Below the pieces are notes generated by a model. That model was not told the DNA's origin, did no database searches, and saw nothing but the letters and a program-made list of their open reading frames with translations. DNA of 64,000 bases from Chloroflexales bacterium ZM16-3 (lineage in GTDB: Bacteria; Chloroflexota; Chloroflexia; Chloroflexales; Chloroflexaceae). Positions 3,323 to 43,406 of this stretch are shown here, one piece after another. Both the position numbers and the translations under genes were made by a program. Each line of letters begins with the position of its first letter. The first letter of the stretch is position 1. The stretch lies in assembly GCA_004138175.2 (NCBI GenBank), contig RYFE02000006.1:1-64000 (forward strand). The letters run 5' to 3'.

Positions 3323-4960
3323 ATGTTTCACACCCCGCGATATGTCCTGGCCACCCAGCCGCGTGCCGCCCGCGTTGAGCGGGTTGGCGTGCTGGTGATC
3401 GGCGCGGGCGCGGCCGGCCTGAGCGCCGCCCTGGTCGCCGCCGAGCGCGCCGATGTGACTGTCCTGGTGCGCGGGCATCTGCCCGAGAGTAACTCGGCCC
3501 TGGCCCAGGGCGGGATCGCCGCCGCCCTCGATGCCCACGACTCGCCGCGCTCTCATATCGACGATACGCTGGTCGCTGGGGCTGGCCTCTCCGACTGGGG
3601 CGCGGTCTCGGCCCTGGCCTACGATGCGCCTGACCTGATGCGCGAGCTGGCCGCCCTCGGCGTGCCTTTCGAGCGTAGCGCAGACGACCGCTTCGCCCTC
3701 GGCCTGGAGGGCGGCCACTCGATGCGCCGGATCGTCCACGTGGGCGACGCCACGGGCTGGGCTGTCACCGAGCAGCTGATCGCCCAGGCCCAGGCCCACC
3801 CGCGCATTAGCATCCGCGAGGGCTGGCAGGCCGCCGACCTGCTCGATGCGGGCGGGCGCGTCGTGGGCGTGATGGCCCGCGACGCAGCGGGCACATGGTC
3901 GCGCATCCTGGCCGACGCGACGATCCTGGCCACCGGCGGGGCGGGCGCGCTCTATGGGCTCACGAGCAACCAGCCGGTCGCCCTCGGCGAGGGCATCGCC
4001 ATGGCCTACCGCGCAGGGGCCGAGGTGGCCGACATGGAGTTTGTCCAGTTCCACCCCACGGTCTACCGCACCCGCGAAGGCCAGGGCTTCCTGATCACCG
4101 AGGCGGCCCGAGGCGAGGGCGGACACCTGCGCACCCTCGACGGAGAGCGCTTTATGCCCGCCTACGATCCGCGCGCCGAGCTGGCCCCGCGCGATGTGGT
4201 GACGCGCGGGATCTACGCGGCCATGCGCCGCACCGGCAGCGACCATGTGCTGCTCGACCTGACCCATCTGCCGCCTGAGCTGCTGGCCCACCACTTCCCG
4301 ACGATCTCGGCCCGCCTGCGCGAGGACGGGATCGATATCGCCACCACGCCTATCCCGGTGGCCCCGGCCTCGCACTACCTGATGGGCGGCGTGCGCACCG
4401 ATCTGGATGGGGCCACCAGCCTGCCGGGGCTCTACGCCGCCGGCGAGGTGAGCTGCACCGGCGTCCACGGCGCGAACCGCCTGGCCAGCAACTCGCTGCT
4501 GGAGTGCCTGGTGTTCGGACGAAGGGCGGGGGAGGCCGCTGCGCGAATTGCAGATTGCAGATTGCAGATTGCAGATTGGTCTGAACCTCAGATCAATTTG
4601 CAATCTGCAATCTACAATCTGCAATCAGATTGGCGCTCCGAGCTGGCCGAGATCATGGTCGCGGCGGCCGGCCCGCTGCGCGACAGCCACGGGCTGCGGA
4701 TCGGCCAGGCGGCTCTGGCGGCCATGCCGACCCAGGCTAGCCCGGCAGATGGCGATGCGATCACGGCGGCGAACGCGGCCCTGACGGCCCGCCTGATTGT
4801 TGAGAGCGCCCTGCTTCGCCAGGAGAGCCGGGGCGGCCACTTCCGCAGCGACTTCCCGCAGACCCGCGAGGACTGGCACGCACATACGGTGCTGCGCCGG
4901 GGCCAGTCCCTCCAGCTGGTCGAGACGATCGCTCCCGATCTGGCTCACGCGGCGGATTAA
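3323..4960 (+). CDS. nadB: L-aspartate oxidase NadB with an in-frame repeat insertion
   Basis: This FAD enzyme oxidises L-aspartate to iminoaspartate for NadA. The N-terminal dinucleotide motif GAGAAGLSAALVAAE, the SNSALAQGGIAAA stretch, QFHPT and the family signature ending in ASNSLLECLVFGRRA are all visible. The 545 residues are slightly long because residues about 409-435 are encoded by a palindromic repeat (4547-4626) between the FAD domain and the C-terminal helical domain. The frame is kept and the C-terminal domain continues normally from WRSELAEIM. The start has AAAGGA upstream. It is probably co-transcribed with nadA (44-base gap). Confidence 0.93.
   Translation: MFHTPRYVLATQPRAARVERVGVLVIGAGAAGLSAALVAAERADVTVLVRGHLPESNSALAQGGIAAALDAHDSPRSHIDDTLVAGAGLSDWGAVSALAYDAPDLMRELAALGVPFERSADDRFALGLEGGHSMRRIVHVGDATGWAVTEQLIAQAQAHPRISIREGWQAADLLDAGGRVVGVMARDAAGTWSRILADATILATGGAGALYGLTSNQPVALGEGIAMAYRAGAEVADMEFVQFHPTVYRTREGQGFLITEAARGEGGHLRTLDGERFMPAYDPRAELAPRDVVTRGIYAAMRRTGSDHVLLDLTHLPPELLAHHFPTISARLREDGIDIATTPIPVAPASHYLMGGVRTDLDGATSLPGLYAAGEVSCTGVHGANRLASNSLLECLVFGRRAGEAAARIADCRLQIADWSEPQINLQSAIYNLQSDWRSELAEIMVAAAGPLRDSHGLRIGQAALAAMPTQASPADGDAITAANAALTARLIVESALLRQESRGGHFRSDFPQTREDWHAHTVLRRGQSLQLVETIAPDLAHAAD
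4547..4626. repeat. Palindromic TTGCAGA tandem element inside nadB
   Basis: The left arm holds four and a half units of ATTGCAG (4547-4578). The right arm (4595-4626) is their near-exact inverse, and about 16 bases separate them, so the element can fold into a long hairpin. Related elements sit between genes at 9506-9557, 12831-12913, 35463-35511 and 49409-49480. Here it is translated in frame within NadB. Confidence 0.85.
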
Positions 4961-10068: not shown

Positions 10069-11550
10069 CTACGGGCAGAATGGCGGCACGGCGCCCTGGG
10101 CCTGGTTCTGCACCTGGACATCGCCCAGGCCGGGGCCGTTCGGGCCGGGCGCGTTATCAACCTGGTCGGTGCTAATGGTGAGCTGGACGTTGGCCGGGTA
10201 GCTGTTGGCCGGGCAGGCCGTGGCGAACCCGCTGGCGTCGGTCGGCCCAAGGGTCACCGTGTCATGAAAGGTGACGCCGCCAAAGACATAGCTGATATGG
10301 ACGGTGATCGTCTTGCCCGCCACCCCGACACCTCCCAGGCTGGTGTAGACGCGGCCAGAGAGGTAGAGCCCTGCGTTGCCGCTGCTCCCCGGGTTGTAGT
10401 GCTTCACGGCGCTGAGCGACACCGAGACCCCCGGCGGCGGTGTGGGCGTGGGCGTGCTGGTGATCGTCGGCGTGGCCGTTGGCGGGAGGCTCGTCGGTGT
10501 GATCGTCGGCGTGTTGGTTCGCGTCGGCGTGTTGGTTCGCGTCGGCGTGTTGGTTCGCGTCGGCGTGTTGGTTCGCGTGTTGGTCACCGTCGGCGTGTTC
10601 GTCTGGGTCGGCGTCGGTGTGTTGGTTCGTGTCGGCTTGGGCGTGCTCGTTGGCTTGGGCGTCCGCGTCGGCTTGGGCGTGCGCGTCGGCCTAGGCGTCC
10701 GCGTCGGCGTGCTCGTCCGCGTCGGCGTGCTCGTCCGCGTCGGCGTGCAGATGGAGATCGGGCATGCCGTGGCGGTTCTCGTGCGCGTCGGCGTACTCGT
10801 GCGTGTCGGCGTGCGCGTCGGCGTGTTGGTCACTGTCGGCGTGTTGGTCGGCGTGTTGGTCACCGTCGGCGTGTTGGTCACTGTCGGCGTGCGCGTGCGC
10901 GTCGGCGTGTTGGTCACCGTGGCCGTATTCGTCGCGGTTCCCGTCTCGGTGGGCGTCGCCGTCTCGGTCGGCGTCGCCGTCTCGGTCGGCGTCGCCGTCT
11001 CGGTCGGCGTATTCGTCGGCGTCGATGTCTCGGTCGGCGTCGGCGTATTCGTCGGCGTGTTGGTCGGCGTCGGCGTGACCGTAGGCAGCAGGCCGGCAGG
11101 CGGCGCGCGCAGGCCGTCGCAGCCGGTGGTGATCGTCCGCATCGACACGGCATCCAGGTCGAAGCCGTCGAAAACCCCCGCGCTGAACGGGTCGAGCGGC
11201 TCGATCCGGTAGCTCACCGTGACTGTCACCGGGTCGCCATAGTTCTGGAGGTAGGGGCCGCTATAGTCGATCCGCATCGTATTAAAGATCAGGTCGGTGT
11301 CGGCGAAGGCCGGCACGTGGGCCACCGTATCGGCACGGATCATGTCCAGCTCCGCCGGGCTGGGGCAGGGGCGCACGGCGGCGGCGCGTGCGCCCTCGCG
11401 GGCCGCGTTGTTGATCTGGGCGTACATAAAGAGCAGGTAGCCCAGGTTGATGATCCCGAGCAGCAGCAGCAGCAGCAGCGGCAGCACCAGGGCGAACTCA
11501 ACCACGCTCTGCGCCCCACGGCGAGGAAGATCCGGCTTGTGTCGGCTCAT
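10069..11550 (-). CDS. TadE-like protein with long Pro/Thr-rich stalk and C-terminal beta domain
   Basis: The 493-residue protein begins with a TadE domain: [20 protein letters not shown], one membrane segment, then [12 protein letters not shown]. After about residue 155 comes a 215-residue low-complexity stalk of TPT, TNTPT and TETATPT units. The C-terminal 120 residues (from [15 protein letters not shown]) look like an Ig-like beta domain. The stalk would hold this domain away from the cell surface. Normal TadE proteins have only about 150-200 residues, so this is an unusual adhesin-like fusion. Repeat number is probably unstable, because the coding DNA is a minisatellite. Confidence 0.8.
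10440..11090. repeat. Coding minisatellite for the Pro/Thr stalk
   Basis: Imperfect units of 6-18 bases built around GTCGGCGT and GTTGGTTCGC repeat for about 650 bases. They encode TPT/TNTPT/TRTPT repeats on the minus strand. Length variation between strains is likely. Confidence 0.8.
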
Positions 11551-13852: not shown

Positions 13853-13880
13853 AACCGTGATCAACCTCTTCTGTATAGTC

Positions 13881-14006
13881 CCAACCCCCAACCCCCAACC
13901 CCCAACCCCCAACCCCCAACCCCCAACCCCCGACTCCCGACTCCTGACCCCCGACTCCCGACTCCTGTCCCCCGACTCCCGACTCCTGTCCCCCGACTCC
14001 TGTCCC
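13881..14006. repeat. CCCCAAC and CCCGACTCC tandem repeats between tadB and tadC
   Basis: About seven CCCCAAC heptamers are followed by units of CCCGACTCC, CTGACCC and CTGTCCC. The tract ends directly at the tadB stop codon. CCCCAAC-type tracts also occur at 10047, 37220, 57685 and 57766, and the GACTCC type occurs inside mnmA. Confidence 0.8.
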
Positions 14007-14981
14007 CTACACCTTAATGTCGGCAATCTTCTGGATCACCAGGAAGCCGATCACCGCGCTGATGCCTGCCCCCGCCGGGATGCACAGCGTGATCCCGGGC
14101 TGGAACAGCTTGCCCATATAGTCTGGGTTGATCATGAACAGGATCCCAGCCAGGCCAAAGGGCAGCCCGCCGATCACATACGAGGACATGCGCTGCATCG
14201 AGGTGATCACCCGCACCTCGCGGCGCAGCTTATCGCGCTCACGGATCGTCACGCTGATGCTGTCCAGGATCTCAGTCAGGTTGCCGCCCACCCGGCCATT
14301 GATCTTGATCGCCGTGACGACAAGCTCCAGGTCGGTGCTCTGCAGGCGTGCCACCAGATTGTCCAGAGCGTCGCTAAGGCTCAGTCCAAGGCGCACCTCC
14401 TGGGTCACGCGCTCAAGCTCGCTGCGGGTGGGTTCGCGGGCCTCCTTCGCCACCATCGTCAGGGCCTGGGCCAGGCTGAAGCCGCCGCGCAGTGCGCCGC
14501 AGATCATCGTCAGGGTCTCGGCGAGCTGCTCGCCGAAGAGGGTGCTGCGGCGGCTGCTCAGCGAGCGCAGCCAGAGAACCGGGGCGATGAACCCAATGAT
14601 CAGAGCGATCGGGATCACCAGCAGGTCACGCCAGATCAGCAGGGCGCCCAGCGAGAGGAGCAGCGGGATGGCGACCCGCAGCAGGATCCACTCGGGCACC
14701 TTCAGGGACAGGTTGGCCTGCTCAAGCTGGCGGGCGATCTGCTGGGCGAACCCGCGCCGCCCGATGTTCTCGTTGATCCGCTCGGCGATGCGGGCGCTCG
14801 GCAGGTCGGCCACACGCTCGGCCTCGTCCACCCCGTACACATCGTCGCTCAGGTAGGTCTGCAGGCGTGAGGCCAGCGGGTTGGAGTCGCTGGTCAGCGC
14901 GCGCAGCCCGATCACCAGCACGATGATCGTGAGCGAGGCCAGGGCCGCCGCGCCCAGGATGATGATTGTTGTGCTATCCAT
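14007..14981 (-). CDS. tadB: TadB-like inner-membrane platform protein (T2SSF domain)
   Basis: The 324-residue protein has an N-terminal membrane helix, two central helices and two C-terminal helices flanking a T2SSF domain. Motifs LAETLTMICGALRGGFSLAQ and IKINGRVGGNLTEILDSIS are typical of TadB. It partners TadC as the platform of the Tad machine. Only three bases separate it from the upstream tadA, so translation is probably coupled. Confidence 0.9.
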   Translation of the reverse strand: MDSTTIIILGAAALASLTIIVLVIGLRALTSDSNPLASRLQTYLSDDVYGVDEAERVADLPSARIAERINENIGRRGFAQQIARQLEQANLSLKVPEWILLRVAIPLLLSLGALLIWRDLLVIPIALIIGFIAPVLWLRSLSSRRSTLFGEQLAETLTMICGALRGGFSLAQALTMVAKEAREPTRSELERVTQEVRLGLSLSDALDNLVARLQSTDLELVVTAIKINGRVGGNLTEILDSISVTIRERDKLRREVRVITSMQRMSSYVIGGLPFGLAGILFMINPDYMGKLFQPGITLCIPAGAGISAVIGFLVIQKIADIKV

Positions 14982-16402: not shown

Positions 16403-16510
16403 GTGGGGGTGCGGGGGCGGCTTCGCCGCCCCCGCGATACTTTTTTGTTGAGGTTGGGCGGCTTCGCCGCCCAACCTCAACAAAAGTAGGTTTGGGGCGC
16501 AGCCCCAAAG
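16403..16510. repeat. Hairpin repeat between tadZ and tadA
   Basis: A 20-bp perfect stem (16443-16462 with 16466-16485, loop TTC) carries GGTTGGGCGGC. It is flanked by smaller GGGGGCGGC-TTC hairpins and by GGGGCGCAGCCCC. A near-identical element is at 29700-29825 and a shorter one at 50921-50953. Confidence 0.8.
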
Positions 16511-24504: not shown

Positions 24505-24762
24505 TCATACTCGCAGACGTGAGACAAAAATCAGCAGGAGCCAGGCCATAAGCACCGACTCGAGGATGGGCACGCCGGCTGGCGTGGGGAGATCGAGCGG
24601 GAAGCGCAGCCCGAGGCCGTAGGCGATCAGGCATCCTACAACGGCGGTGAGCCAAAAGATCGGCAACTGACGCCATGCGCGTCCTAGCAGGACGTGGGCC
24701 AGTGCGGCGCAGGCGGTGGCGATCAGGAGGATGAGCACGGCTGCTGGGGCGATGCCGCTCAT
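24505..24762 (-). CDS. Small three-helix membrane protein
   Basis: The 85-residue protein is almost entirely three hydrophobic helices with short loops. Its ATG overlaps the mnmA stop by four bases (ATGA), a sign of translational coupling. No family was recognised. Similar tiny membrane proteins after mnmA occur in other Chloroflexia, to my recollection, but I cannot confirm that here. Confidence 0.65.
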   Translation of the reverse strand: MSGIAPAAVLILLIATACAALAHVLLGRAWRQLPIFWLTAVVGCLIAYGLGLRFPLDLPTPAGVPILESVLMAWLLLIFVSRLRV

Positions 24763-25886
24763 GCGCCACCAGCCCGCGCGATCAGGCCACCGCCGATCAC
24801 CCGCTCGCCATCGTAGAAGACGGCGGCCTGTCCGGGGCTGATCGCCCGCAGCGGCTCGTGCAGGCGAACTGTCAGCCGCCCATCATCGCCGGGCACTACC
24901 TCGGCGGGCGCGGTCGCGCCGTGGGCGCGCACCTGCACATGGCAGCTGAATGGCTCTTCCGGCCAGCTGCTGGATGTGAAGCTGATACGTTCCACGTGAA
25001 ACTCTTTGCGGATCAGCGCCGCCGCCGGGCCGACCACCAGGGCGTTGCGCGCCGTGTCTAGGGCGGTCACATATAGCGGCTCGGAGCCCTGTAGCCCCAG
25101 GCCGCGGCGCTGGCCGATAGTGTAGAGCGGCAGCCCGCTGTGTCGACCCACCTCGCGCCCTTGCTGGTCGACGATCGGGCCGGGGACGATGCTCGCCGGT
25201 GCCTCCTCGCGAATAAGGTTGCGGTAGTTTCCCCCAGGCACAAAGCAGATGTCCTGGCTCTCCGGTCGGTCGGCGCTGTCCAGCCCGCGCTGTGCAGCCA
25301 TCGCTCGCACCTCGGCCTTGCGGTACCCGCCGATTGGGAATGTCAGCCGGGCCAGATCGCTCTGCTGGAGCATGTACAGCATGTAGGACTGGTCCTTCTC
25401 AGGGTCGGCGGCTCGGTAGATCTGGGGCTCGGGAGTCGGGAGTCGGGAGTCGGGAGTCGGTGCAACTGACTCCCGACTCCCGACTCCTGAGCCCTGTATC
25501 CTCGCGTAGTGCCCGGTCGCCACGTACTCGTAGCCGAGCTGGGTCGCGCGGGAGAGCAGGGCGCGGAACTTGATCTCGCGGTTGCACTCCAGGCAGGGGT
25601 TGGGCGTGTAGCCCTGGGCGTAGGCGTGGACGAAGGCGTCGATCACGTGGAGCCGGAACTCGCGCTGGTAGTTGAAGACATAGTAGGGCACGCCGAGTCG
25701 GGCGCAGACCCGTCGGGCGCTCTCGGTCATCTCCTGTGAGCAGCAGAGGCTCTCGGCCAGGCGGTCGTCGTCGCCCTCCCAGAGGTGCATCGTCACGCCG
25801 ATCACCTCGTGGCCCTGCTCGTGCAGCAGGGCGGCCGCCAGGGAGCTGTCCACCCCGCCGCTCATCGCGACAATAATTTTTGCCAT
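24759..25886 (-). CDS. mnmA: tRNA-specific 2-thiouridylase MnmA with an in-frame repeat insertion
   Basis: MnmA adenylates and thiolates U34 of tRNAs for Lys, Glu and Gln. The PP-loop SGGVDSS, the nucleophile Cys98 in NPCLECN, YVATGHYARI and the second catalytic Cys region ICFVPGGNYR are present. The 375-residue protein is about 20 residues longer than usual: residues about 131-155 (GVGSRESVAPTPDSRLPTPE) are encoded by a GGAGTCGG palindromic element (25425-25494). They sit in a loop between the GHYARI strand and the YRAADPEKDQS motif. The ATG at 25886 starts the conserved AKIIVAMSGG; the frame extends upstream. Confidence 0.94.
   Translation of the reverse strand: MAKIIVAMSGGVDSSLAAALLHEQGHEVIGVTMHLWEGDDDRLAESLCCSQEMTESARRVCARLGVPYYVFNYQREFRLHVIDAFVHAYAQGYTPNPCLECNREIKFRALLSRATQLGYEYVATGHYARIQGSGVGSRESVAPTPDSRLPTPEPQIYRAADPEKDQSYMLYMLQQSDLARLTFPIGGYRKAEVRAMAAQRGLDSADRPESQDICFVPGGNYRNLIREEAPASIVPGPIVDQQGREVGRHSGLPLYTIGQRRGLGLQGSEPLYVTALDTARNALVVGPAAALIRKEFHVERISFTSSSWPEEPFSCHVQVRAHGATAPAEVVPGDDGRLTVRLHEPLRAISPGQAAVFYDGERVIGGGLIARAGGA
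25425..25494. repeat. GGAGTCGG palindromic element inside mnmA
   Basis: Four GGGAGTC units on the left face their inverse on the right across about 8 bases, bounded by GGGCTC (25425-25430) and GAGCCC (25489-25494). The same unit occurs in the tadB-tadC gap (13931-14006). The element is translated in frame. Confidence 0.85.
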
Positions 25887-29699: not shown

Positions 29700-29825
29700 C
29701 AGGGGTGTTGCAATGTCCTGGGGCTACGCCCCAGACCCGGTTTTTTGTTGGGTTTGGGCGGCTTCGCCGCCCAAACCCAACAAAAAATTCTGCAGGGGTG
29801 GCGAAGCCACCCCCGCACCCCCACC
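29700..29825. repeat. Hairpin repeat between tauE-like and DUF1634 genes
   Basis: A 22-bp perfect stem (29741-29762 with 29766-29787, loop TTC) carries GGGTTTGGGCGGC. Flanking smaller hairpins are CCTGGGGC-TACGCCCC and GGGGTGGC-GAAGCCACCCC. Nearly the same module is at 16403-16510. Confidence 0.8.
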
Positions 29826-43312: not shown

Positions 43313-43373
43313 AGCCCGACAGCCCGACAGCCCGACAGCCTGACACTAGGCGGCTGTCGGGCTGTCGGGCTAT
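43313..43373. repeat. GCCCGACA palindromic tandem element
   Basis: Three or more GCCCGACA units face TGTCGGGC units across about 16 bases. Located between the membrane-protein start and the response-regulator stop. Same design as the TTGCAGA and GGAGTCGG elements. Confidence 0.75.
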
Positions 43374-43406
43374 CGCTCAAAGGGTAACGCTGCTACGAGC
43401 CATATG

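Follow-up and report, generated by a model that had tools for sequence, protein, structure and literature searches.

The palindromic repeat translated within mnmA of Chloroflexales bacterium ZM16-3 is, in our judgement, probably one copy of a genome-wide population of 7-nt (heptamer) repeats that is shaped by slippage, fold-back copying of arms, exchange or rebuilding in place, and selection on frame and stop codons. The proposed element consists of a G-rich tandem array, a short loop and a complementary C-rich array. Its unit number would grow by slippage in 7-nt steps, replication may copy one arm onto the other through fold-back template switching, and entire hairpins may be exchanged or rebuilt in place; in genes, selection would keep only those copies with a net length that is a multiple of three and with stop-free heptamers. 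The best reading of the mnmA copy is that it is near-neutral and fast-turning-over, tolerated at the tip of a beta-hairpin and filtered for frame and stop codons only.

A heptamer hairpin is translated in frame within mnmA

The window is the whole stretch of DNA that was analysed, 64,000 nucleotides of contig RYFE02000006.1 of ZM16-3. The features discussed below are:

24759..25886, minus strand: mnmA, tRNA-specific 2-thiouridylase, 375 aa (NF001138, TIGR00420, Pfam, solved relatives)
25425..25460, plus strand: G-rich arm, (GGGAGTC)n (exact period-7 run 25429-25460)
25461..25467, no strand: central loop separating the heptamer arrays (inverted-repeat and tandem analysis)
25468..25494, plus strand: C-rich arm, (GACTCCC)n, reverse complement of the G-rich arm (inverted-repeat and tandem analysis)
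25425..25493, minus strand: repeat-encoded in-frame segment, MnmA residues 132-154 (GSGVGSRESVAPTPDSRLPTPEP) (alignment of about 100 orthologues, AlphaFold2 model)
4547..4626, no strand: GATTGCA hairpin, in frame in nadB (ORF 3323-4960, plus strand) (tandem and linker comparison)

The mnmA product matches the profiles NF001138 (415.5 bits, cut-off 284) and TIGR00420 (328 bits), contains the Pfam domains PF03054, PF20258 and PF20259, and has 9hln, 2hma and 2der as solved structural relatives. An inverted repeat with 27-nt arms at 25425-25451 and 25468-25494 (96% complementary, 16 nt spacer) was found inside the gene, and the arms contain exact period-7 tandems, TCGGGAG x4.6 at 25429-25460 and GACTCCC x2.9 at 25468-25487. 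A sequence-only reading had reported a palindromic repeat at 25425-25494; the inverted arms, the heptamer tandems and the intact ORF confirm that it is real. The 8-nt unit quoted in that reading, GGAGTCGG, was wrong and is ruled out by the period of 7: it is one 7-nt GGGAGTC unit plus one base. The 8-nt string occurs 19 times in the 64-kb window against 4.0 expected, a count reached by 0 of 100 shuffles. Four GGG tracts, of interest for G-quadruplex formation as a trait of Xanthomonas/Nostoc-type heptamer repeats, lie on the plus strand. Translation passes through the repeat with the frame kept, as had been claimed, giving ARIQ-GSGVGSRESVAPTPDSRLPTPEP-QIYRAADPEK, and the ORF of 375 aa is intact; the insert peptides are of the GSGVGSRESVAPTPDSR type.

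In the AlphaFold2 model of MnmA (mean pLDDT 89), residues 132-154 make up the tip of a beta-hairpin whose strands are 128-131 and 155-158; confidence is low over the insert region, where the block-mean pLDDT is about 52-61. Structure modelling is thus consistent with the earlier proposal that the repeat sits in a loop.

A companion hairpin lies in frame in nadB, within a linker of L-aspartate oxidase that varies between species. The same NadB linker carries other heptamer-like repeats in KT5_bin-278 (KT5), G001 and G007, and the linkers of repeat-free species are of similar length. The position of the hairpin in a species-variable linker bears out the suggestion that NadB is another case of a tolerated in-frame repeat.

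The MnmA loop differs between related species

The MnmA loop was compared in an alignment with about 100 orthologues, in which the nearest sequences came from Oscillochloris (ZM17-4, 84-85%; KT5, 78%). The loop of ZM17-4 holds an in-frame hairpin of AGGAGGC / GGAGGCA and that of KT5 an in-frame hairpin of GGGGGAT, while Ja1-D5, from another genus, has an in-frame mosaic array of GGGATCA, GGGGTTG and GCGGTCA that is tandem, not a hairpin. Two Oscillochloris species (L063, L064) have a short loop, net 21 residues shorter than that of ZM16-3, which reads QIQ, three more residues and then LYRAADPEK; O. fontis MnmA is also without the insert. A presence/absence check suggested by the sequence-only reading, run here on related species, found the insert missing in two and different heptamers in others. 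With two congeners lacking the insert and several relatives carrying unrelated heptamer repeats, the claim that insertion is tolerated in this loop stands. Orthologues sharing a non-repeat loop of similar length had been named as evidence against an insertion; such loops were found in Roseiflexus and some other distant relatives, so that the objection holds in part. Since Roseiflexus and some others have long non-repeat loops of comparable length, this MnmA loop permits length variation in general.

In an MnmA tree built with the loop removed, a clade with full support unites KT5 with the two short-loop species, ZM16-3 and ZM17-4 stand beside it without a resolved order, and O. fontis falls outside. 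Taken with the loop states, the tree therefore leaves either one gain, followed by loss and heptamer replacement, or several gains. Several gains would follow if a transposition-like insertion had entered the same permissive loop in each species, with no replacement in place. The edges of the insert do differ by a few bases among ZM16-3, ZM17-4 and KT5, and the two insert-less LJ species group with KT5 at full support, as such independent insertions would predict. Taken together with the comparison of shared sites described below, we regard this explanation as a serious contender, a little short of an even chance.

The insert or its mRNA hairpin could instead be selected for a function, for example slowing translation between domains or binding tRNA. 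The hairpin in the mnmA transcript is very stable (MFE -64.7 kcal/mol, z = -10.2) and hairpins of similar size recur in mnmA of three species. On the other side, different species have unrelated insert peptides, two congeners and O. fontis have no insert at all, hairpins of this kind are also found in spacers and in unrelated genes, and the modelled loop is of low confidence. A functional loop is thus unlikely, and we infer that the peptide is a tolerated by-product at the beta-hairpin tip. Repeats are prone to mis-assembly, but an intact mnmA ORF and comparable in-frame hairpins in the same loop of other, independently assembled species make an assembly or sequencing artefact extremely improbable.

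Heptamer hairpins are abundant in the ZM16-3 and ZM17-4 genomes

The ZM16-3 genome (6.27 Mb, 127 contigs) and that of ZM17-4 were each sampled at about 10% (635 kb for ZM16-3). Exact period-7 runs in the 635 kb of ZM16-3 reached 181/Mb, compared with 2-27/Mb for the other periods tested; no heptamer runs of at least 18 nt were found in 89 kb of O. fontis. About 37 hairpins were present in the 0.64 Mb ZM16-3 sample, and in almost every one the G-rich arm preceded the C-rich arm. The dominant heptamers were GATTGCA, GGGAGTC and GGGGGTT in ZM16-3 and GATTGCA, GGGGACA and GAATGTT in ZM17-4. Tandem dimers of GGGAGTC, the unit found in mnmA, numbered 488 in ZM16-3, 1 in ZM17-4 and 0 or 1 in each of the other 59 relatives, so that this family is private to the ZM16-3 genome. 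GATTGCA dimers were patchy in the family (370 in ZM16-3, 986 in ZM17-4, 242 in KT5, 333 in G007 and 392 in G016, with none in most others; G006 and G024 were clean and O. fontis nearly so), and the reversed-pattern control gave 0 everywhere. This control is neutral for GATTGCA; it is not for GGGAGTC or GGGGACA, whose reversal is a heptamer family too.

Among 90 non-overlapping hairpins from ZM16-3 and ZM17-4, the G-rich arm came first in 77 and the C-rich arm in 4. Since a hairpin reads identically on both strands, this order is a property of the element and not of the strand. Within a single hairpin, the arms also agree more closely than do arms taken across hairpins of the same family: their units were identical in 24 of 37 hairpins (14.4 expected) and in 37 of 53 (22.3 expected), with 0 of 500 permutations reaching these values in either set. 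Both results bear on the idea that ordinary slippage acted on a G-rich direct repeat that had arisen by chance in a variable loop, the complementary arm being coincidental. Unpaired arrays are indeed common, with 82 solo arrays of at least 17 nt in ZM16-3, and the Ja1-D5 loop is itself such a tandem array. Nevertheless, the arm match within hairpins far above family expectation and the 77 to 4 excess of G-rich-first order argue against coincidence, and we consider chance slippage quite improbable.

Heptamer hairpins occur in unrelated genes and in spacers alike. Only a few of about 64 repeat-bearing gaps were open-frame on both sides, a count made from substitution periodicity and open frames, which served for gene calls in this survey in place of a gene finder or full gene prediction. 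In-frame palindromic insertions in protein genes were found in mnmA, in nadB, in one cyclase-like gene and in one acyl-CoA-synthetase-like gene. Total hairpin lengths fell into the classes 0/1/2 modulo 3 as 13/12/12 in ZM16-3 and 12/22/19 in ZM17-4, with no bias towards 0 genome-wide; because there is no preference for multiples of three, the in-frame state within genes points to selection rather than to the design of the element. As 7 and 3 are coprime, a heptamer array encodes the same cyclic heptapeptide whichever of the three frames is read. For GGGAGTC these peptides are GSRESGV and DSRLPTP, stop-free on both strands, and therefore a GGGAGTC hairpin can lie within a gene whatever its orientation or phase, provided that its total length fits. 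No stop codon arises on either strand from the mnmA heptamers of ZM16-3, ZM17-4 and KT5, which is weak evidence for a stop-codon filter because 71% of random heptamers at 65% GC also pass.

Sister species carry different heptamers at shared sites

To compare sites between species, we aligned contig C1 of ZM16-3 with C1 of ZM17-4 using exact anchors, which gave 1138 alignable gaps. A chain of long HSPs had found only one site with heptamers in both species, as the aligner ran through equal-length swaps, and exact anchors were used for that reason. Heptamers were present in both species at 21 of the 1138 gaps (odds ratio 50, p about 1e-21), although clustering at permissive sites alone would inflate this ratio. 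At 10 of the 21 shared sites the heptamers differed between ZM16-3 and ZM17-4. Hairpins thus differ in presence, heptamer and copy number at the same sites of sister species, the MnmA loop included. All comparisons are between species, not strains, and an array at C1:209376 was left out because the gene model chosen was in an unrelated frame.

Several of the swaps are equal in total length (88/88, 96/96, 100/100) with intact flanks, which counts against independent insertion. So does C1:31698, which lies in a 1513-aa cyclase/AAA/TPR gene (L154:10412-14950, minus strand) with two in-frame inserts, GATTGCA in the cyclase region and GGGAGTC in the TPR region. At this site ZM16-3 has GGGAGTC hairpins in frame, whereas ZM17-4 and G003 have a homologous GAATGTT hairpin common to both. 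Overall identity suggests that ZM16-3 and ZM17-4 are sisters and, if so, the site is likely to be an in-gene replacement. At C1:366046 a single-base difference runs throughout both arms (GCAGATG in ZM16-3, GCAGATT in ZM17-4), and G003 has a scrambled stem that is still nearly fully paired.

Near-empty sites can be cited for insertion. Just 5' of a start codon at C1:202831, two hairpins of near-equal length, AGGGCTG in ZM16-3 and GAATGTT in ZM17-4, stand where three other species have only 5-9 nt, a pattern that also counts as evidence for turnover at fixed sites; C1:305496 is another near-empty site. Against insertion, inspection by eye of a few near-empty sites revealed no obvious target-site duplication, and the transposase family PF01797 does not follow repeat load. 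Independent insertion at a few permissive sites stands as the alternative for most sites, including mnmA. Conversely, an active process in Oscillochloris may rewrite hairpins in place, changing both arms together and, at fixed sites that include translated core-metabolism genes, swapping whole hairpins for other heptamer families, so that frame alone would act as a filter; we advance this only tentatively, as one possibility.

REP/RAYT mobilisation, with a Y1 transposase (PF01797) as partner, was considered separately and rejected: ZM17-4 has its 986 GATTGCA dimers and no PF01797 match, and genomes with many PF01797 copies are without the repeat.

Relation to known heptamer repeats and palindromic elements

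The type of element is already known; the new part is swapping at genome scale, in genes and in frame, for which no description was found in the open-access literature searched. Xanthomonas and Nostoc carry GGGNATC heptamers, G-rich 7-nt tandems found across the genome and mostly non-coding, with one consensus per genus; Xanthomonas has 70-75 sites at which two of them form a convergent inverted pair (Rehm et al. 2015, PMC4692102). ZM16-3 resembles them in its tandem 7-nt unit and strong genome-wide enrichment, and the G-rich-first layout of 77/90 hairpins resembles the convergent pairs of Xanthomonas. The consensus GGGNATC or GGGGAYT does not hold here: the main G-rich unit, GGGAGTC, is one base away from the Xanthomonas GGGAATC and stands beside many others. 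In contrast to Xanthomonas and Nostoc, each genome here contains many heptamer families, some copies lie in frame within genes, and sister species have differing heptamers at the same sites.

In the trnL intron of Nostoc, 7-nt repeats (TDNGATT or NNTGAGT) make up the stem of the P6b hairpin, and the whole region was replaced several times by another heptamer class (PMC4476775). Here, too, complementary 7-nt repeats form a stem and relatives have a different heptamer class in that position, and the GTTGAGT family of ZM16-3 fits NNTGAGT. However, P6b is a single RNA locus in a group I intron, whereas the hairpins described here are genome-wide and include coding sites, the present copy being in mnmA. 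In the same order, Chloroflexus aurantiacus has scattered (GATAGRA)n satellites, which in the part of the source consulted are described as tandems of one heptamer, with no hairpin or coding swap, unlike ZM16-3 (PMC6749651). Polymerase slippage at 7 nt has been put forward as a proposal (cited in PMC4679880).

Rickettsia palindromic elements are in-frame palindromic insertions in protein genes, translated at surface positions, and form longer sequence families rather than heptamer tandems. By description, the in-frame palindromic insertions of ZM16-3 are alike.

In cyanobacteria and Xanthomonas, the spread of heptamer hairpins and the replacement of one class by another at the same site are without explanation. 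The sister genomes compared here offer many paired sites in different states, which make heptamer turnover directly measurable, and in genes the reading frame records the outcome. Heptamer hairpins also provide conserved enzymes with a way to acquire new, unrelated stretches of peptide.

Other repeats

A long mosaic array at 13880-14007 passes in phase from (CCCAACC)7 into GACTCCC/GACTCCT units and is a visible transition between heptamer families. At 43313-43375 an 8-nt unit (AGCCCGAC / GGCTGTCG) forms a hairpin that differs from those of heptamers in that its C-rich arm comes first. Two perfect palindromes of terminator-like form and similar sequence lie at 16443-16485 (TTTTGTTGAGGTTGGGCGGC) and 29741-29787 (TTTTTTGTTGGGTTTGGGCGGC). 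Long degenerate CGTCGGCGT repeats with a period that is a multiple of 6 occur in an ORF at 10504-11076 and likely encode a low-complexity protein segment. Finally, a dispersed repeat of about 42 nt (L171:6575-6617) has dozens of copies in ZM16-3, ZM17-4, G001 and G005 and several in O. fontis; the L171 membrane protein shows translated stretches such as SPLPSPPAPLPLRQERGE, for which no exact match to the repeat of about 42 nt was made.
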